The notes beneath the pieces were generated by a model. The model had not been told where the DNA came from. It did not search any database and saw nothing but the letters and a program-made list of their open reading frames with translations. Position numbers and translations under genes: made by a program. DNA of 64,000 bases from Myxococcota bacterium. Its GTDB lineage: Bacteria; Myxococcota_A; UBA9160; SMWR01. Within the stretch, counting starts at the first letter, position 1. Each line of letters starts with the position of its first letter. Shown piece after piece: positions 20,352 through 28,597 of the stretch. The DNA lies in assembly GCA_039030075.1 (NCBI GenBank), contig JBCCEW010000030.1, positions 1-64,000 on the forward strand, given 5' to 3'.

Positions 20352-22076
20352 TCAAGACGCGTGGTCGACCGGGAGTCGCACCCGGAACACGCTGCCGCGT
20401 CCGTCCGCGGTCTCCACTTCGATCGTGCCGCCGTGGCTCTCGACGATGCGGTGCGCGATTCCGAGCCCGAGGCCCGTGCCCACGCCCACGGCCTTGGTCG
20501 TGAAGAACGGGTCGAAGATCCGGTCGACGACGTCGCGCGGGATGCCGCAGCCGTCGTCGGCCACGGCCACCACGACTTCGTCCTGCTCCACGCGGGTGGC
20601 CAGGAAGACCGTGCCGCCATCGTCGACGGCCTGCGCGGCGTTCACGACCAGGTTGAGGAAGACCTGGCGCAGTTGTTGGGCGGCTCCGCGCACGGGCGGC
20701 AGATCGCTCTCGAACTCGGACCACACCTCGACGCGGTCGCGCAGCTGGATCGACGCGATCCTCAGCGAGTCCTCCAGTAGCTGACGAACGTCGACGCTCT
20801 CCCGGGCATCCGAGCCGGAATGCGCAAAGCGGTTCACACTCCGGACGATCTCGACGGCCCGGTCGATGCCTTCGAGGGATTCTTCGAGCAGCTCTCCCGT
20901 GTCGGAGAAGGCCGAGGCGAACTCGGGCCCGAGGTCCCGACGCCGATCCCGCAGCTGCTTCCAGCGAGCCTCGAGCTGGGAGAGGTTCGAGCGGACGAAC
21001 GCGAGCGGGTTGTTGATCTCGTGTGCGATCCCGGCTGCGAGTTCACCCACGGCGGCGAGTCGCGCCGAGGTGAGGAGCTGGTGTCGGAGGTCCGAGACTT
21101 CCCGCAGGTCCCGCACGACGGTCACCTCGCCGAGCTGGATTCCCCGTTCGGTGTGGAGCGTGTGGGAGCGCGCCGCGACAGGGATGCGGGGGCCATCGCC
21201 AAAGATCAGTTCGAAGCGATCGTGCGCGTCTCCCGGCTGAAGCAGCGCGTCCATCGGCTTCCCTTCGAGCGCCTCGACCGAGGTCCCTGCAAGACGCGCC
21301 AGAGCGGGGTTGGCGAAGCGGATCCGTCCGTCCGAGCGGTGAAGCGCGACACCGTCCGGAAGGCTGGCCAGGATCTCCTCGGCGGCGCGTGACGGGGTGA
21401 GCGGAGACTGGCCGAAGCGCGCATGCAGGTAGAGCGACAAGAGCGCCACCGGCGCGAACACGGAAGGGATCAGCGGCGGGAACTCGCGACCCGCCAGCGG
21501 CATCACGAAATCCGTTCCGACCAGGATGGCCGTGGGAACGCTGACGCCGGCGAGCAACCACCGCGCGGGTCGGCGTCGATCCTCGGGCAATTCGCCGGTC
21601 GCGCGGCCCGCGATCCCGACGCCGATCAGCGTCCCCAACAGGTTGTAGACGAAGATGGGTCCGTAGAGCGGTCCGGGTTCGATCGAATAGCCCCAGGGCG
21701 CCGGGCGCATGCTCGCGACGACCCAGGGGGTCGTCACGGCGGCGACGAGCGCGACGAACGCCAGCCCATAGCCCAAGCGAAGCGGCGCGGAGAGCCAGCG
21801 TGCGCGCACGTGGAACCGCTCGGAGAAGACCTGCAGCGCCAGCGGCCCGAGGAAGACCCAACCCGGCGCGGAAGCGCGGGCGAGCCAGGCGGCCGCCTCG
21901 GGCGAGGGTTGGAGGTGGGCCATCAGCTGACAGACCCCGAGGTAGGCGAAGCCCAGCAGTAGCACCGCGCGACGCAGGTCCTCGCCGCTTCCGCGGCGCG
22001 CGTGCACGAAGATCCCTCCCGCGCAGGCGGCGCAGGCCAGAGTGGAGAGGGCGACGGCGACGTGTAGCGGGTGCAC
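20352..22076 (-). CDS. Membrane sensor histidine kinase with PAS-like domain
   Basis: A 574-residue sensor kinase. Residues 1-215 hold about seven hydrophobic segments, like the 7TM histidine-kinase sensor module. A PAS-like domain follows at about 225-340 (ILASLPDGVALH). The H-box GIAHEINNPLA carries the phosphoacceptor histidine near residue 351. The ATPase domain has the N box VVNAAQA, G1 DDGCGIP, F box FDPFFTTK and G2 GTGLGLGIAH. No receiver or response regulator lies next to it, so it is an orphan kinase. It starts with GTG and ends a long minus-strand gene series that makes surface glycan. Confidence 0.93.
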   Translation of the reverse strand: MHPLHVAVALSTLACAACAGGIFVHARRGSGEDLRRAVLLLGFAYLGVCQLMAHLQPSPEAAAWLARASAPGWVFLGPLALQVFSERFHVRARWLSAPLRLGYGLAFVALVAAVTTPWVVASMRPAPWGYSIEPGPLYGPIFVYNLLGTLIGVGIAGRATGELPEDRRRPARWLLAGVSVPTAILVGTDFVMPLAGREFPPLIPSVFAPVALLSLYLHARFGQSPLTPSRAAEEILASLPDGVALHRSDGRIRFANPALARLAGTSVEALEGKPMDALLQPGDAHDRFELIFGDGPRIPVAARSHTLHTERGIQLGEVTVVRDLREVSDLRHQLLTSARLAAVGELAAGIAHEINNPLAFVRSNLSQLEARWKQLRDRRRDLGPEFASAFSDTGELLEESLEGIDRAVEIVRSVNRFAHSGSDARESVDVRQLLEDSLRIASIQLRDRVEVWSEFESDLPPVRGAAQQLRQVFLNLVVNAAQAVDDGGTVFLATRVEQDEVVVAVADDGCGIPRDVVDRIFDPFFTTKAVGVGTGLGLGIAHRIVESHGGTIEVETADGRGSVFRVRLPVDHAS

Positions 22077-22115: not shown

Positions 22116-23180
22116 CTAGTGGGCTTGACGCGGCGCCTCCGCCTGTCGGGAGAGCAGCTGGGCGGCCGCCTCGACCGCCTGCTCCGGCGGCAGGTCGACC
22201 AGGCAGCGCTGGTGGCCCAGCGGACACTCCTTCGCGTGGCAGGGTCGGCAGGCGAGATCGAGGAAGAGGACCCGCTGGCGTTCGAGGTGGTGCGCCGTGT
22301 GGCGGGGGTCCGTCGGACCCATCAGGGTGACTACCGGGCGATCCAGCGCGACCGCGAGATGACGCGGCCCCGTGTCGTTGGTGAGAACGAGGGTGGCGCG
22401 GGCCACGACGGCCTTGAAGGTGCCGAGCCCATCCGTGGGCGGGAGCACGACGCACGCCTCTTGCATCGCCTGCGCCACCTGGGCGGCGATCGCCTCCTCT
22501 TCGGGATTGGGCGCGGGCGCGAGCACCACGCGCAGACCGAAGCGACGCGTGATCTCGTCGCACGCCTGGGCGAAGTGTCGAGGAGGCCAGAGTTTGCTGC
22601 GCCCGAAGGCGGCGCCGGGCGAAACGAGCAGCATCGCGTCGTCGCGCGCGACGCCGACCGCGGAGAGGGCCGCGTCAGCCGCGTCTTTGTCTGCCTCGGA
22701 GACGACCAGTGTCAGGCGATCTCCGGCGTCGGGAATCCCCAGCAGGCGGGGAATCCGCAGGTAGCGCTCGATCATCGAGAACGGAACGCGCTGGCCATGT
22801 TCGCGCGGTGCGTCGATCGACTGGGTGAGGAGCGCCCGCCGCAGCCAGTCACGCCCGTAGCCGATCCGGCGCGGAATGCGTGCAACGACGGCATCGAGGG
22901 CCGCCCGCGGCGAGTCGGGCAGGATCACCGCTACGTCGAACGCGAGATCCTGGAGCGCGCGCGCGCGTTCGCGCAGCGCCGCGAAGCTGCGCCCGCGATA
23001 GGGGTGGTAGACGTCGAAGCCCTCGACCCCCGCCAGCAAGGGCTCGTGCTGGGGAGGGCCAAGCGCGTGGATCTCCGCGTCCGGAAGGCCCCGCCGCAGC
23101 GCGCGCAGCGCCGGTGTGGCCATCACGGCGTCGCCCAATGGGTTGGGCAGCCGCACCAGGACGCGGCGGAGGGATTCCAA
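22116..23180 (-). CDS. ADP-heptose--LPS heptosyltransferase family (GT9)
   Basis: A 354-residue GT-B glycosyltransferase of family 9. The N-terminus VLVRLPNPLGDAVMATPALRAL is the RfaF/WaaF pattern, and the donor-binding site reads TNDTGPRHLAVAL followed by MGPTDP. It should add heptose, or a related sugar, to lipid A-core on the cytoplasmic face. Near the C-terminus sits a Cys-rich loop (CRPCHAKECPLGHQRC), common in WaaF proteins. The only start that keeps the conserved N-terminus is a TTG at 23180, one base after the radical SAM stop, so translation is probably coupled. Confidence 0.9.
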   Translation of the reverse strand: MESLRRVLVRLPNPLGDAVMATPALRALRRGLPDAEIHALGPPQHEPLLAGVEGFDVYHPYRGRSFAALRERARALQDLAFDVAVILPDSPRAALDAVVARIPRRIGYGRDWLRRALLTQSIDAPREHGQRVPFSMIERYLRIPRLLGIPDAGDRLTLVVSEADKDAADAALSAVGVARDDAMLLVSPGAAFGRSKLWPPRHFAQACDEITRRFGLRVVLAPAPNPEEEAIAAQVAQAMQEACVVLPPTDGLGTFKAVVARATLVLTNDTGPRHLAVALDRPVVTLMGPTDPRHTAHHLERQRVLFLDLACRPCHAKECPLGHQRCLVDLPPEQAVEAAAQLLSRQAEAPRQAH

Positions 23181-23181
23181 C

Positions 23182-24402
23182 CTAGAGGAAGAAGTCGAGG
23201 CGCTCGTCGCCGGGCTCGATCTCGATCTCGTCGCGCGGGTCTTCGATCATCTTCTCGAGCCACCAGTTCACGCCGTTGTACAGGCAGGTGACCTCGCGGC
23301 ACTCGTGGCTCGCGTCGAAGTCGTCCATCAGGTCGGCCAACTGTCCGCCGGTGATCTGGGCCATCGTCTTGTCGCCGTAGGCATCGAGTCCGCCGACGCG
23401 CGCCTTCTCGACGCCGCGATGGGCCGGGCAGTTGAAGGTGCCCATCGGCGTCAAGACCTGCCGCAGCGCCTGCATGTGGCAGACCTTCGGCTGGTGGGTG
23501 TAGTCCTGCCAGCTGCCTTCTTCGAGCACACGGAGGTTGGTACTCACCCGCACCGAGAACGTATCCGTCGCGAGTTCGCGGGCCTTGTCGACCTCGGCCC
23601 GGATCCGCGCGATGACGGCGTCGCGGTTCTGCGCGGCCTGGGGATCCATCACCTCGGCACCGTCGTCGCCGCGCTCGAGCACCGGCTTCAGCGCGATGTA
23701 GTCGAAGCCGTACTTGCGGGCCCGTTCGGTCGCCATCACGACTTCGTCGATGTTCTCGTGGATCTCGACGTCGTCGCGGGTCGCGCCACCCCACACGATG
23801 ATGTAGGAGAAGCCGAGCTGGAAACGCGGGTTGCGCTCCTTGATCTTCGGGATCCACTCGCAGATCTCGTCGAGCGTCAGCGACTTCCGGACGGGCTTGT
23901 GCATCGTGCGGAACAGCTCGTTGCTACCCGAGTCGAGGGAGAGCCGTACCCAGTCCCGCTCGTCCAGGTACTCGGCGATGTCGAGCAGTTTGTCGCCCTG
24001 GCTGCCATTGGAAACCACCGCGATCTGGAGTTTCAGGTCCTTCAAGAACTTCACGAAGTCGACGAAGCCCTTGTAGATCGTGGGCTCGCCGCCACCGATC
24101 AGGATCACCGAACGCAGCCCCCGCTCGGCCATGGTGACGATCGACGAGCGCAGCGTCTCCTCTTCGTGGCGGTGCTTCGTGTTCAGGATGTCCCAATCGA
24201 TGCAGTGGTCGCAGCGATAGTTGCAGGCCGTCGTCAGATCCAGATTGATCGAGATCGGCGCGATCGGCGGCGGCTCGGGATCGGGCTCACCCGCGGCGCG
24301 CGCGCGAGCCAATGCCTTCCGCCACCCGATGTAGGTGTCGAGATGTTCGCGCAGCGAAGGCTGGCGCAACTTCCCGGTGAAATCGTGAATGGCCTCCGTC
24401 AC
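23182..24402 (-). CDS. Radical SAM protein, SPASM/twitch-like, in a glycan operon
   Basis: A 406-residue radical SAM enzyme. The [4Fe-4S]-binding CNYRCDHC motif is at about residues 55-62, preceded by NLDLTTA. A SAM-contacting GGGEPT follows near residue 100. Four further cysteines in the last third (VCHM, FNCPAH, HEC, VTCLY) could hold an auxiliary cluster. The reaction is unknown; in this context a sugar, aminosugar or peptide modification is possible. The GTG start overlaps the upstream Gfo/Idh stop by 4 nt (GTGA), and the heptosyltransferase begins one base after its own stop. It is therefore in the middle of a co-translated surface-glycan operon. Confidence 0.9.
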   Translation of the reverse strand: MTEAIHDFTGKLRQPSLREHLDTYIGWRKALARARAAGEPDPEPPPIAPISINLDLTTACNYRCDHCIDWDILNTKHRHEEETLRSSIVTMAERGLRSVILIGGGEPTIYKGFVDFVKFLKDLKLQIAVVSNGSQGDKLLDIAEYLDERDWVRLSLDSGSNELFRTMHKPVRKSLTLDEICEWIPKIKERNPRFQLGFSYIIVWGGATRDDVEIHENIDEVVMATERARKYGFDYIALKPVLERGDDGAEVMDPQAAQNRDAVIARIRAEVDKARELATDTFSVRVSTNLRVLEEGSWQDYTHQPKVCHMQALRQVLTPMGTFNCPAHRGVEKARVGGLDAYGDKTMAQITGGQLADLMDDFDASHECREVTCLYNGVNWWLEKMIEDPRDEIEIEPGDERLDFFL

Positions 24403-25352
24403 AGGCCCTCCTCTCGGGCATAGGCAGCGATGAGCTCTTCGAGGAGCTCCATCCGCTGCACGATCTGGCGTGCGTGGGCGCTTCGTTCGGTTTCGTCCCC
24501 GCTGCCCAAACAGCGCACGAAATCAGCGATCAGCAAGGTCAGGGGGTCGTCCAGGGGAACGGTTCGCTCGGAGCCGGCGAAGGATAGCCGGTAGCTCTCG
24601 GGCTCCACCACACGCCGGGCTTCCCGACCATCGAAGGCCAGGCTGGCTCGGCGCGGGATGGTGTCCTCGCGAGCCAGATCGATCTGGACCGCGCAGCTCC
24701 CCGCGCCGGAATCGTAGTCGAATCGCACCTGAAGCGGCACGTCCGGATGTGAGCGGGTTGAAAAAACCACATTTCGGAGGGTCGTGGGACCGGGCAAGGC
24801 CCGCTGGAGCACCGAGATCGGATGGGACAGGGCGTCCCCAAGGGCCTGGAGCCCTTCGGAAACCGGCTGGAGCTGCATCCGGAACTGCTTCGGGGGGCTC
24901 TCGAAGGCCCCGGGGTAGAGGGCTTCGAAGCCCGGCAGCGTGAACGGCCATTGGCAGTTCTCGTAGAGCCAGAGCCCCTGGCCCGCGAAGCGTTCCACCA
25001 GCTCACGGCTGCGTTCGGCGAGGCCGGTCCCTCCCCACACGAGTGGCTTCTCGCAGAGGACCGACACGCCGGCCTCGGCCGCGCGCGCGAGATGCGCCTC
25101 GTGGGTCTCGGAGGGCGAGAGGATCGCCACCGCGTCGAGTGCTTCGGCGAAGAAGGCGTCGGACTCGGTGAACCCCGCCGCCTCGATCTCCGCGATCTCC
25201 CGCAGCGCGGCTTGGGTCGGTGCGATCGAGCTCTCTCGGGTCGCGAGGAAGACCGGAACTTCCACGCCGAGCGCGCGGAGGTCGCGTGCCACGAAGGGGC
25301 CGAGACCCTGGCGCGTGCGGCGTGCGCCGATCAACCCGACACGCAGCGTCAT
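24399..25352 (-). CDS. Gfo/Idh/MocA-family NAD(P)-dependent oxidoreductase
   Basis: A 317-residue oxidoreductase. A Rossmann N-terminus starts RVGLIGARRTRQGLG, and the family motif CEKPLVWGG follows near residue 102. Members oxidise or reduce hydroxyls or ketones on sugars and inositols. The second catalytic motif is harder to see and the glycine loop is GARRTRQG rather than GxGxxG, so it is a divergent member. Its ATG overlaps the glycosyltransferase stop (ATGA) and its stop overlaps the radical SAM start, which suggests it edits a sugar in the same pathway. Confidence 0.85.
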   Translation of the reverse strand: MTLRVGLIGARRTRQGLGPFVARDLRALGVEVPVFLATRESSIAPTQAALREIAEIEAAGFTESDAFFAEALDAVAILSPSETHEAHLARAAEAGVSVLCEKPLVWGGTGLAERSRELVERFAGQGLWLYENCQWPFTLPGFEALYPGAFESPPKQFRMQLQPVSEGLQALGDALSHPISVLQRALPGPTTLRNVVFSTRSHPDVPLQVRFDYDSGAGSCAVQIDLAREDTIPRRASLAFDGREARRVVEPESYRLSFAGSERTVPLDDPLTLLIADFVRCLGSGDETERSAHARQIVQRMELLEELIAAYAREEGL

Positions 25353-26467
25353 GTCGTCTCCGTCTCGGCCAGGATCTCGCGGTACAGCGCCACGTACTGC
25401 TCGACCATCTTCGACGCGGTGAAGGTATCGCGGATGCGCTGGGCGCCGGCGTGCCCGAGGCGATCGCGGAGCACGGCGTCGGCGTGCATGCGCTGCAGCG
25501 CTGCCGCGAGGGCATCTGCGTCCTCGGGCTGCACCAGCAGACCCGTCTCTTCGTGCAGGACGACCTCGGCGAGCCCGCCGACCGCACTGGCGACCACCGG
25601 GCGCGCACGTGCCATCGCCTCGAGCGCAGCGACGCCGAGCCCCTCGAGCCGCGACGGCAGGACGAAGACGTCGCAGGCCTCGAGCCAGTCGGCGATGTCG
25701 TCGCGTCGGCCGAAGAATGTGGCGCGCGCGGTGACGCCGCGTTCGCGCGCCAGCGCTTCGAGCGCCTCCTTCTCGACGCCGTCTCCGACCACCCAGAGCC
25801 GCAGGCCGGGGGCTTCCGCGCAGCGCGCCAGTGCCTCGATCAGCAGGTCGATGCCCTTGCGTCGGACCAGGTTCGCCGTCACCAGCAGCACGACGTCGTC
25901 GTCCCGAACGTCGCGTTCGCTGCGCAACTGCGCGCGGTCGGCGCTGGGGGTGAGGGTGGCGGGGTCGACGGAACTCCAGATCAGACGAATGCGGTCCGCG
26001 GCGACGCCGCCTTCCTCGAGTCGCGTGGCAACCGCAGGCGAGATCGCTGCCGCCCGGCGCATCACGCGTCCATACAGCCAGCGCGTGCGCGGTCCGCGCT
26101 TCACGCGTCGGTCCATCCGCCGCGTGGTCAGGGCGGGAATTCCCGCGCGCCAGGCAGCCAGGCCTCCCACCCAGTTGGCGCGACCGGTATGGCAGTGCAC
26201 CAAATGCGGGCGCTGTTCGCGGAGGATCCGGGTCGTGCGCCAGCTGGCGGGAAGCGAGAGGTCGTTGCGCATGGCCACGCTCGCCGTCGCGATACCGCGC
26301 TTCTCGGCCTCGGCGCGAGCCCGACTGTCGGGCGGGCAGATCAGCAGGTTCTCGTGGCCCGCGTCGCGGAGGCCTTCCATCAGCAGGAAGACCTGTACCT
26401 CGCCGCCCGAGAAACCCGTCTCGCCCGATACATGGGCGATCCGCAGGCCGGATTCGCTCCTGGCCAC
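25349..26467 (-). CDS. Glycosyltransferase family 4 (GT-B)
   Basis: A 372-residue retaining glycosyltransferase of the GT4 group. The C-terminal half has the donor-binding motif FVLPSRLEGLGVAALEAMARARPVVAS (conserved E-x7-E) and a GDGVEKE segment. The N-terminus has HVSGETGFSGGEVQVFLL. It likely transfers a nucleotide sugar onto a cell-surface polysaccharide or LPS intermediate at the membrane. It starts with GTG, 4 nt after the Hsp33 gene, and overlaps the Gfo/Idh gene. Confidence 0.93.
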   Translation of the reverse strand: MARSESGLRIAHVSGETGFSGGEVQVFLLMEGLRDAGHENLLICPPDSRARAEAEKRGIATASVAMRNDLSLPASWRTTRILREQRPHLVHCHTGRANWVGGLAAWRAGIPALTTRRMDRRVKRGPRTRWLYGRVMRRAAAISPAVATRLEEGGVAADRIRLIWSSVDPATLTPSADRAQLRSERDVRDDDVVLLVTANLVRRKGIDLLIEALARCAEAPGLRLWVVGDGVEKEALEALARERGVTARATFFGRRDDIADWLEACDVFVLPSRLEGLGVAALEAMARARPVVASAVGGLAEVVLHEETGLLVQPEDADALAAALQRMHADAVLRDRLGHAGAQRIRDTFTASKMVEQYVALYREILAETETT

Positions 26468-26471
26468 GCGA

Positions 26472-27377
26472 TCAGGAGGGCGGCGCGGAGGACTCCTCCC
26501 CCGCCTCGATCAGGACGCGCAGCCGGTCCGGGCCGACCTGGTAGGAGGCCGCGCAGAAGTGACACTCCACGCCGATCGGTTCCGCTTCTTCGATGGCGCG
26601 TTCGAGCTCCTCGCGCCCCAGCGTCTGCAGCGCGCGGGACACCCGCTCCTCGTTGCACCCACAATGGAAGGCCACAGGGAGTTCGTGGGCGTCGCGCATG
26701 CCCAGGCCCTCGAGCAGGCGCGCGAGCAGGCCGTGCGCATCGAGCCCCTCGGCCACCAGCTGGGACGGGTTCGGGGTGGCCCGCACGTTCTCTTCGACCC
26801 GGTCGATCTCGGCTTCGCTCGCACCGGGCAGGGCGTGCACCAGGTAGCCGGCCGCGGAGCGGACCCCACGCGGCGGATCCTCTTGCACGCCCAACGCGAG
26901 CGCCGTCTGGCTCTGCTCGCTCTCGGACAGGTAGTGGGTGAGGTCTTGCGCAATCGTTCCGTGCACGATCTGCACGATGCCGGTGTACGGCTGTTGGCCG
27001 GCGCGCATGCGTACGACCGTGAGCACCCCGGCCCCCACCGCGGCATGCACGTCGAGCTGACCGTCCACCCGAGGCGGGTGTGCCCGCGGGCTGCCGACGT
27101 AGCCGCGGGCATTCCCGAGGGCGTCGGCGCCGGCGACCACGCCCTTCAAGGGGCCATCCCCGCGGAACTGCACCTGCACGCTCTCGTCGTCTTCCTTCCC
27201 GCTGGCCGCCAGCAGCAGGGCCCCGAGCAGGGTGCGGCCGAGCGCAGTCGTCGCCGTGGGAGAGGTGCGATGCCGGGCGGCGCCCTCGCGGACGAGCTCG
27301 GTCCCGACGATGGCGCGCACGGCAATGCCTCCCTCTTCGGAGACACAACGAACGAGACGGTCCGGGGGCTGGTTCAC
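26472..27377 (-). CDS. hslO: Redox-regulated chaperone Hsp33
   Basis: A 301-residue Hsp33. The zinc-binding redox switch is present: CGC at about 238-240 and CHFC at about 273-276, the same spacing class as the Escherichia coli protein. Oxidation of these cysteines releases zinc and turns on holdase activity in the cytoplasm. Conserved core segments include ALGRTLLGALLLA and LVAEGLDAHGLL. The GTG start at 27377 agrees with the conserved N-terminus; longer frames upstream are antisense to the TraB-family gene. It lies 8 nt after the TraB-family gene, with MsrPQ further upstream in the same orientation. Confidence 0.95.
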   Translation of the reverse strand: MNQPPDRLVRCVSEEGGIAVRAIVGTELVREGAARHRTSPTATTALGRTLLGALLLAASGKEDDESVQVQFRGDGPLKGVVAGADALGNARGYVGSPRAHPPRVDGQLDVHAAVGAGVLTVVRMRAGQQPYTGIVQIVHGTIAQDLTHYLSESEQSQTALALGVQEDPPRGVRSAAGYLVHALPGASEAEIDRVEENVRATPNPSQLVAEGLDAHGLLARLLEGLGMRDAHELPVAFHCGCNEERVSRALQTLGREELERAIEEAEPIGVECHFCAASYQVGPDRLRVLIEAGEESSAPPS

Positions 27378-27385
27378 GCGATGCC

Positions 27386-28597
27386 TCAGAAGAGATTCGT
27401 GAAGATCTCGACGCCGCCGACGTACGTGCCGATGAAACTGCCAAAGGTGGTCAGCACGAATACCAGGAAGATGCGCAGCAAGCGGCTCTGCCACCAGTGC
27501 TTCCACTCGCCGAAGTCATCCCCCACGGTCTCGAACTCGCGCACCGTTGGCGGTTGCAGATAGGCCTGCAGGAACGCGCAGACGTAGCCCGCGCCGATCA
27601 CCGGGATCAGGCTGGTGACGGGTGCTGCGGCGAAGGCCCCGATGATGACGAGCGGGTGGGCGAGGGCGATCAGCGCTCCCAGCGAGGCGGGGATGCCGTT
27701 CGCGAGGATCCAGAACAGCAGGTTCTCGCCGGCCACGCGGGCTCCCTGCTGGACGCCGATCGCGATGAGGGCGCCGATGATCGCGGCGGGTACGCCCCAA
27801 CCGATCCACTTCCACAGCTTCCCGACGGGTGGGATCACGTTCAACGCCGCGAGGTCGACCGGGCTGCGCGACTCGATCGAGCGCCGGATGCCCTGGACGT
27901 GACCTGCACCGACCACGGCGACCACCCGCCGCCCAGCCGCGCTGCGGATCTTCTCGGCGAGGAACTGGTCGCGCTCGTCGATGAGCGTGGTCTTCACCGC
28001 CGGCAGCTCGTCGCCGAGTTCGCGCATCAGCTCGGAGAGCACGTCCTGGTCGCGGATGCGACGCAGCTCGGCCTCGTCGAGCTCGGGCCGGTCGACGACG
28101 CTGCCCAGCAGCGCAGCCAGCAGCTTCGCCTTGTTCCAGAGCGTCATCGCGCCCCAGGCGCGGCGCAGCGTCACGCGCACGTCGCGGTCGCAGAGTTCGA
28201 CGGGGATCTCGAACTCTTCGGCGGCCTTCGACGCCTCGAGCAGCTCGGTCCCGGGCGCGACGCCCAGCGCCCCGCCCAGCTTCTTCTGGTACGAGGCGAG
28301 GATCAGGTTCGCGAGGAGCGGAGCGAGCTGCCGTTCCCGAATGACCTGTCGAAGATCGAGGTCTTCCCAGCGGCGGCGCTGGGAGAGTGCTTCGAAGCGC
28401 TGGGTGTCGAGCTCGATGCAGACCGTGTCGGGTCGCTCCTTCTCGATGACCTCCCGGACGAGGTCGGCGGACTCGCGCGACACGTGAGCCGTGCCCACGA
28501 GCAGGAACTCGCGGTCATCGAGTCGCACGGTCTGGACGTCGGAGGGCCAGTCGGCGGCGGCTTCCGGGGTCGGTTCGGTGGGGCGCGCGTCGTCCAT
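27386..28597 (-). CDS. TraB/GumN-family membrane protein
   Basis: A 403-residue protein of the TraB family. It opens with the family core: LLVGTAHVSRESADLVREVI and CIELDTQRFEAL, then a central region with VVAVVGAGHVQGIR. The C-terminal 150 residues contain about four hydrophobic segments, so it is an integral membrane protein with a cytoplasmic or periplasmic enzyme-like head. Family members are linked to pheromone shutdown in enterococci, and a tiki-like metalloprotease fold has been proposed. The bacterial function is poorly known. The ATG at 28597 is the natural start. It sits between msrQ and hslO. Confidence 0.88.
   Translation of the reverse strand: MDDARPTEPTPEAAADWPSDVQTVRLDDREFLLVGTAHVSRESADLVREVIEKERPDTVCIELDTQRFEALSQRRRWEDLDLRQVIRERQLAPLLANLILASYQKKLGGALGVAPGTELLEASKAAEEFEIPVELCDRDVRVTLRRAWGAMTLWNKAKLLAALLGSVVDRPELDEAELRRIRDQDVLSELMRELGDELPAVKTTLIDERDQFLAEKIRSAAGRRVVAVVGAGHVQGIRRSIESRSPVDLAALNVIPPVGKLWKWIGWGVPAAIIGALIAIGVQQGARVAGENLLFWILANGIPASLGALIALAHPLVIIGAFAAAPVTSLIPVIGAGYVCAFLQAYLQPPTVREFETVGDDFGEWKHWWQSRLLRIFLVFVLTTFGSFIGTYVGGVEIFTNLF

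Follow-up and report, generated by a model that had tools for sequence, protein, structure and literature searches.

The closest described systems are found among radical S-adenosylmethionine (SAM) enzymes acting on sugars. In the apramycin pathway AprD4, a radical SAM diol dehydratase, is partnered by AprD3, an NADPH-dependent reductase (PMC5461906), and DesII is a radical SAM deaminase of TDP-4-amino-4,6-dideoxyglucose with a single cluster (PMC11434129). The locus considered here lies in a stretch of 64,000 nucleotides (the window) from a Myxococcota bacterium (assembly GCA_039030075.1, contig JBCCEW010000030.1), where the gene of an oxidoreductase of the Gfo/Idh/MocA family (Gfo) is followed by the gene of a radical SAM enzyme. 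This Gfo-radical SAM pair is the conserved unit: it recurs in related loci, is fused into one protein in one lineage, has invariant cysteines and is enriched near heptose genes.

It is proposed, with a probability of roughly 40%, that the pair alters ADP-heptose or a heptose of the core, most likely by deoxygenation, and that the product of the adjacent gene, a GT9 enzyme of the heptosyltransferase family, places or extends the modified residue. Heptose, one of the core sugars at the bacterial surface, is probably the substrate, a link which comes from gene context, and if this is so deoxygenation would be the leading outcome, though not by far. The pair would act on ADP-heptose or on a heptose already present in the envelope-glycan core; the radical SAM enzyme would abstract a hydrogen adjacent to a hydroxyl, loss of water from the resulting radical would give a deoxy-keto sugar, and Gfo would use NAD(P)H to reduce the ketone. 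Heptose would in this way be deprived of one hydroxyl, and the adjacent GT9 would place or extend the modified residue. This order of dehydration and reduction follows the precedent of AprD4/AprD3 on paromamine. Many relatives also carry a divergent heptose adenylyltransferase and a Nudix hydrolase resembling nucleotide-sugar pyrophosphatases, which gives a hint of a separate activated sugar. Put forward tentatively is the joint claim that a dedicated, undescribed pathway to a radical-modified heptose (e.g. a deoxyheptose) for the outer membrane exists in many Planctomycetota and in a few bacteria from the phylum of the window, and that it has a redox pair, a nucleotide-sugar hydrolase, an adenylyltransferase and a heptosyltransferase of its own. 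To our knowledge no radical SAM enzyme takes part in heptose or lipopolysaccharide core synthesis; in the open-access PubMed Central literature no paper containing both "radical SAM" and "ADP-heptose" was found, nor a description of this Gfo-radical SAM family among the titles and beginnings of abstracts listed. If true, the proposal would give a concrete substrate class to a radical SAM family without an assigned function, would predict that Planctomycetota have an unknown core sugar and would offer a testable two-enzyme system, naturally fused into a single protein in one lineage.

The genes of the cluster, in the order GT4, Gfo, radical SAM, GT9, and their principal motifs are as follows:

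25349..26467, minus strand: GT4 glycosyltransferase, 372 aa, GTG start (PF00534, 1.7e-40; PF13439, 2.3e-20)
24399..25352, minus strand: Gfo/Idh/MocA oxidoreductase, 317 aa (PF01408, 7.9e-10)
25044..25052, minus strand: Glu-Lys-Pro motif of Gfo with Lys102, invariant in 47 aligned homologues
24822..24836, minus strand: DALSH of Gfo, D173-x3-H177 motif; H177 invariant and D173 present in at least 90% of the 47 homologues
23182..24402, minus strand: radical SAM enzyme, 406 aa, GTG start (PF04055, 8.1e-19)
24202..24225, minus strand: CNYRCDHC, residues 60-67 of the radical SAM enzyme, the CX3CX2C motif for the SAM-binding [4Fe-4S] cluster; Cys60, 64 and 67 in 113/113 homologues
23284..23481, minus strand: C-terminal twitch-like region of the radical SAM enzyme, C308-X16-C325-X42-C368-X4-C373; four Cys in 113/113
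22116..23180, minus strand: GT9 heptosyltransferase-family enzyme, 354 aa, TTG start (PF01075, 1.9e-36)

GT4 and Gfo overlap by 4 nt, Gfo and the radical SAM gene by another 4 nt, and a gap of 1 nt precedes GT9, all on the minus strand; these are the overlaps and the gap given in the original prediction, which had been made from the DNA letters alone. The four extra cysteines it had ascribed to the radical SAM enzyme were also found (Cys308, 325, 368 and 373), and the reaction, which it had left unassigned, stays so, no close NCBIfam model or solved structure being among the matches listed. Third-position GC of 0.82-0.90 across all four open reading frames, together with homologues in the same order in other loci, makes them look like real genes.

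The gene pair and the heptose genes around it

The comparison was based on 125 loci: scanning GTDB-species contigs contributed the best 80 of 189, a search of the window's phylum 4, a selection from 65 Planctomycetota matches 40, and the window itself one; removal of 12 near-duplicates left 113 unique loci, a non-random sample. In 95 of the 107 unique loci with at least 1.2 kb of upstream DNA, a Gfo gene of the same strand overlaps the radical SAM gene or lies no more than 300 bp upstream of it. Among the 12 exceptions 9, some of which have a short upstream flank, gave no Gfo, two have it elsewhere (L143, L107) and one at 307 bp (L144). Gfo and radical SAM enzyme are fused in one open frame, the Gfo part first, in two genomes (L156 and L157), with a GT9 gene 101-164 nt downstream of both fusions; since these are sister rows in the radical SAM tree, a single fusion event is probable.

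The relatives search detected radical SAM homologues in 7 of its 60 genomes; among genomes of the window's phylum 7 of 282 have them (the window's own genome counted in both), and among Planctomycetota 65 of 392. The best 80 of 189 relatives are mostly Planctomycetota by record title, with some "Deltaproteobacteria" and Myxococcales metagenome-assembled genomes. The window's genome holds one copy, two further matches being remote (E 2e-4 and 5e-4). Viral origin was rejected, as one scan of viral contigs with the single window protein, able to detect close relatives only, gave no radical SAM relatives. Two records call for caution: in L017 (G035:C398) the homologue is read in three pieces, as in a decaying gene or a poor assembly, and L066 is titled Candidatus Kuenenia stuttgartiensis, its radical SAM protein nesting with metagenome-assembled genomes titled only Planctomycetota, and its label or binning may be questionable.

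Profiles and queries for GT9, HldE, HldD and GmhB (GmhA was not among them) were run over the loci. A heptose gene, i.e. GT9, HldE, HldD or a GmhB-like gene, occurs within 4 kb in 35 of the 73 unique loci with at least 4 kb on both sides, and at least two such genes in 15; by kind, GT9 is found in 26, HldE in 19, HldD in 3 and a GmhB-like gene in 2. When flanks and limit are both widened to 6 kb, the count is 22 of 54. The arrangements vary. In the window's clade GT9 and then HldE2 follow downstream on the same strand, the window itself being without HldE2, and GT9 stands upstream on the opposite strand in L140, L142, L147, L150 and L174. The pair GT9-HldE2 is divergent from Nudix-Gfo-radical SAM in L154 and L177, and HldD is placed upstream in L141 (G494) and L146 (G421) and convergently in L139 (G322), in all three exceeding the TIGR02197 cut-off. 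Finally, a GmhB-like gene lies upstream, with full-length HldE nearby, in L169 and L081 (=L168).

As a control, 30 genomes carrying the radical SAM gene were found to hold 102 GT9 genes, 2-6 each; a GT9 lies within 4 kb of the radical SAM gene in 17 of the 30, against 0.21 expected under random placement. These genomes were hand-picked with some contexts already known, which inflates the fraction and leaves the expectation unaffected; the less biased figure is the 26 of 73 loci given above.

Partner enzymes and heptose supply

The window's GT9 passes the heptosyltransferase II model TIGR02195 (176.2 bits, cut-off 134.6). Of the GT9s, 39 of the 42 linked to the radical SAM gene and 19 of the 20 unlinked ones in carrier genomes were long enough for a tree of 58 rows, computed with FastTree and rooted at its midpoint; it has some long branches, and the search profile had been built from linked GT9s. 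The label linked or other requires 3 changes on this tree: 38 of the 39 linked GT9s stand on one side, joined by the unlinked L186, L188, L193 and L194, and the remaining 15 unlinked ones group with linked L156. The GT9 of the window groups with the linked proteins and the second GT9 of its genome (L180) with the rest.

Of the linked HldE2 copies other than full-length HldE, 10 of 10 tested reach 135-162 bits on TIGR02199; the cut-off, 181.5, is exceeded by the C22 copy of the window's genome (190.9) and by full-length HldE of L076 (203.7) and L169 (189.5). Both kinds, full-length HldE and divergent HldE2, occur in one locus in L169 and L081. The two heptose adenylyltransferases of L169 (5827-7785 and 12801-14990) belong to different lineages. 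In the HldE2 tree three linked copies (L144, L152 and L153) group weakly with full-length HldE. The third partner, which 33 of 73 loci have no more than 4 kb away, is taken as a divergent Nudix hydrolase from its profile, which matches ADP-ribose and GDP-mannose pyrophosphatases (best 6e-9); a Pfam signal was obtained for 1 of 14 members (0.0045). This family, represented by L068:6275-7027 and members in 33 further loci, has 47 invariant columns in 14 aligned members.

The window's genome contains two GT9 genes at E<=1e-15, one of them the GT9 of the locus. Its HldE1 (347 bits, cut-off 345) and HldE2 are over their cut-offs, and a GmhA-like protein is under (181 bits, cut-off 209). No HldD was detected there at E<=1e-40, and ADP-D,D-heptose may be the activated form in this organism. 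HldD was likewise missing at that threshold from 30 of 40 genomes with the radical SAM gene, as would be expected if the pair replaced HldD, the ADP-heptose 6-epimerase; this explanation is very improbable and was disfavoured, given that HldD over the cut-off co-occurs with the pair in 10 of 40 radical SAM-positive genomes (6 of 40 negative ones have it) and adjoins it in three.

GT4, as judged from sequence comparison, is a minor part of the set. Its best NCBIfam model is TIGR03088 (180.5 bits, cut-off 409), and a homologue of at least 50% identity was found in 4 of 80 related loci (L018, L019, L025, L027). The end of an Hsp33 gene sits 4 nt ahead of the GT4 start; this gene and one of the TraB/PrgY family (window 26472-28597) lie immediately upstream of the cluster. 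As both also precede the pair in L018 and L024, this may be where the operon begins. On the other side, 39 nt after GT9 and on the same strand, a histidine kinase with an N-terminal seven-transmembrane region and a PAS domain is encoded (20352-22076).

Cysteines, folds and competing explanations

Membership of the radical SAM superfamily follows from the PF04055 domain and the CX3CX2C motif; PF04055 was the sole Pfam match of the window's protein, with no SPASM match at E<=0.01. The family is tight, with 66 invariant positions over the 113 unique homologues. Eight cysteines are present (60, 64, 67, 181, 308, 325, 368 and 373), seven of which, the three of the SAM cluster and the four C-terminal ones, are invariant in all 113, Cys181 being Leu in 6. 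The four C-terminal cysteines are enough for one predicted auxiliary [4Fe-4S] cluster. Alignments comprised 57 radical SAM and 47 Gfo rows, not all loci, the Gfo of L080 being omitted for a stop in its reading; the radical SAM enzyme is the more conserved partner (mean column identity 63% vs 36%, in overlapping, non-identical sets).

Gfo belongs to the Gfo/Idh/MocA family by PF01408 (39.9 bits, cut-off 24), by the lysine of Glu-Lys-Pro and by the DxxxH motif; Lys102 is taken to be the catalytic lysine of these enzymes, and the D173-x3-H177 motif presumably has a catalytic role as well. Its glycine loop is unusual, reading GARRxRQGLGPF in the consensus of the 47 homologues and in most rows.

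The model of the radical SAM enzyme has a predicted local distance difference test score (pLDDT) of 93 and a predicted template modelling score (pTM) of 0.92. Foldseek placed DesII first (E 3.8e-13, TMq 0.57), followed by SuiB, BlsE, SkfB and viperin. In VIA the order was SkfB (Z 23.0, root-mean-square deviation, rmsd, 5.4, 311 aligned), BlsE (21.7, 4.2, 308), DesII (20.6, 4.4, 333), SuiB (20.1, 4.1, 292) and MoaA (19.1, 3.4, 272), with BtrN, EpeE, MoaA and anSME ranking lower. The modelled fold alone cannot choose, sugar-nucleotide and peptide enzymes both being near. AprD4 and NeoN were absent among the structural matches listed, which excludes nothing. The Gfo model (pLDDT 96) is nearest to GenD2 (Z 26.7, rmsd 3.0, 284 aligned), GnnA (26.3, 2.9, 280) and KijD10 (26.1, 3.2, 287). 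GenD2 acts on sugar hydroxyls or ketones (PMC5461906), and so do GnnA and KijD10 by their entry titles.

The fold neighbours SkfB and SuiB would suit a peptide maturase, and an antiviral viperin is suggested by the best NCBIfam and PADLOC matches (67.9 and 65.9 bits). Against this stand the low score under the NCBIfam model NF038283 (cut-off 180), a match covering residues 50-196 only, the fact that viperins are not known to have the C-terminal cysteines, and the constant partner Gfo with its sugar-oxidoreductase fold. A maturase or viperin is hence hardly to be expected, although precursor peptides were not searched for, and the viperin or defence role was rejected on the scores. Altogether 47 NCBIfam models matched at E<=0.01, none over its cut-off among the best 25, and the closest solved structure by sequence is YydG (6.4e-8, residues 50-183 only).

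A further explanation retains heptose as the substrate and changes the outcome: the radical SAM enzyme could be a BtrN-like dehydrogenase with the auxiliary cluster as electron acceptor, Gfo re-reducing the sugar from the other face to an epimer, or Gfo could oxidise first and the radical SAM enzyme alter the neighbouring carbon. BtrN has one fully ligated auxiliary cluster, into which the four invariant C-terminal cysteines would fit; the structural comparison matched it too (Z 14.4, rmsd 3.5, 226 aligned), and the nearest folds of Gfo include a 3-dehydrogenase and a 3-ketoreductase. Nevertheless BtrN ranks well below DesII and BlsE, and this outcome is judged somewhat unlikely. A direct epimerisation, in which radical SAM epimerases use a cysteine as hydrogen donor, is less likely still, because the seven invariant cysteines look like cluster ligands and Cys181 is replaced by Leu in 6 of 113 homologues.

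The proposal that the pair modifies heptose has also to face a number of observations which weigh against it. No heptose gene lies within 4 kb in 38 of the 73 loci; two proteins are under their cut-offs, the GmhB-like one of L169 (122.1, TIGR00213 cut-off 149.6) and the GT9 next to the fusion in L157 (120.7, cut-off 134.6), and on the radical SAM tree the presence of a heptose neighbour switches at least 11 times, which may reflect gains, or else losses of an old block. Co-occurrence with RfaE2 is a weak test, as this gene is nearly universal (334 of 392 Planctomycetota) and the genomes are related: it was found in 64 of 65 radical SAM-positive and 270 of 327 negative Planctomycetota, and at least two matches in 51 of 65 and 96 of 327 (hand count, relatedness uncorrected). 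The highest VIA score belongs to a peptide enzyme, SkfB, above BlsE and DesII, and no residue comparison shows DesII- or AprD4-type chemistry. In the window's genome a single RfaE2 was found and the Nudix query gave no match, in a search run without a positive control; Nudix and a second adenylyltransferase would accordingly be accessory there and the core set Gfo, radical SAM enzyme and GT9. Confidence is reduced by the restriction of the fusion to one lineage, by the score of the GmhB-like protein and by tree changes that are possibly losses.

In another explanation the pair makes a product unrelated to the glycan (a cofactor, a lipid or a nucleotide-repair product) and just travels with heptose genes in some lineages. 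The 38 loci without a heptose neighbour agree with it, as do some clades that keep the pair beside saccharopine-dehydrogenase-like and methyltransferase genes (read from the sequence alone) and the resemblance of the Nudix partner to ADP-ribose pyrophosphatase. It is nonetheless doubtful in view of the GT9 control in hand-picked genomes and the count over the 73 loci, of the several arrangements involving four kinds of heptose gene, and of the linked GT9s, which mostly group in their tree. The original prediction of an unusual sugar modification in the envelope glycan is partly supported, on gene context, and can be sharpened to heptose; it is weakened by the loci without a heptose gene and by the minor place of GT4. 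It had named as evidence against itself homologues lying mainly outside glycan loci, and here the division is near even, 35 loci with a heptose gene and 38 without.

Comparison with known systems

Gfo matches GenD2, GnnA and KijD10 in fold over the whole length (rmsd 2.9-3.2) at 16-18% identity, with Z values that lie within 1 of each other (26-27) and numerous further Gfo/Idh enzymes close behind. The likeness of the radical SAM enzyme to BlsE, the radical SAM cytosylglucuronate decarboxylase (PDB 7vob), lies in the fold, at 14% identity. To DesII, a nucleotide-sugar enzyme, it is aligned over nearly its whole length; in contrast to the single cluster of DesII (PMC11434129), the family has four more invariant cysteines, and the identity is about 14%. 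That single cluster makes a DesII of the known kind unlikely here. No aminotransferase was found among the identified neighbours of the pair, some neighbours lacking annotation.

The likeness to AprD4/AprD3 would lie in the division of labour, a radical SAM enzyme being joined by a reductase on one sugar ring. The known substrates of AprD4/AprD3 are aminoglycosides, whereas the Gfo-radical SAM genes often lie beside heptose and GT9 genes; the reductase partner here is of the Gfo/Idh family. A radical SAM enzyme working with a reductase on a sugar is already known, and it is the setting among heptose genes that is new.

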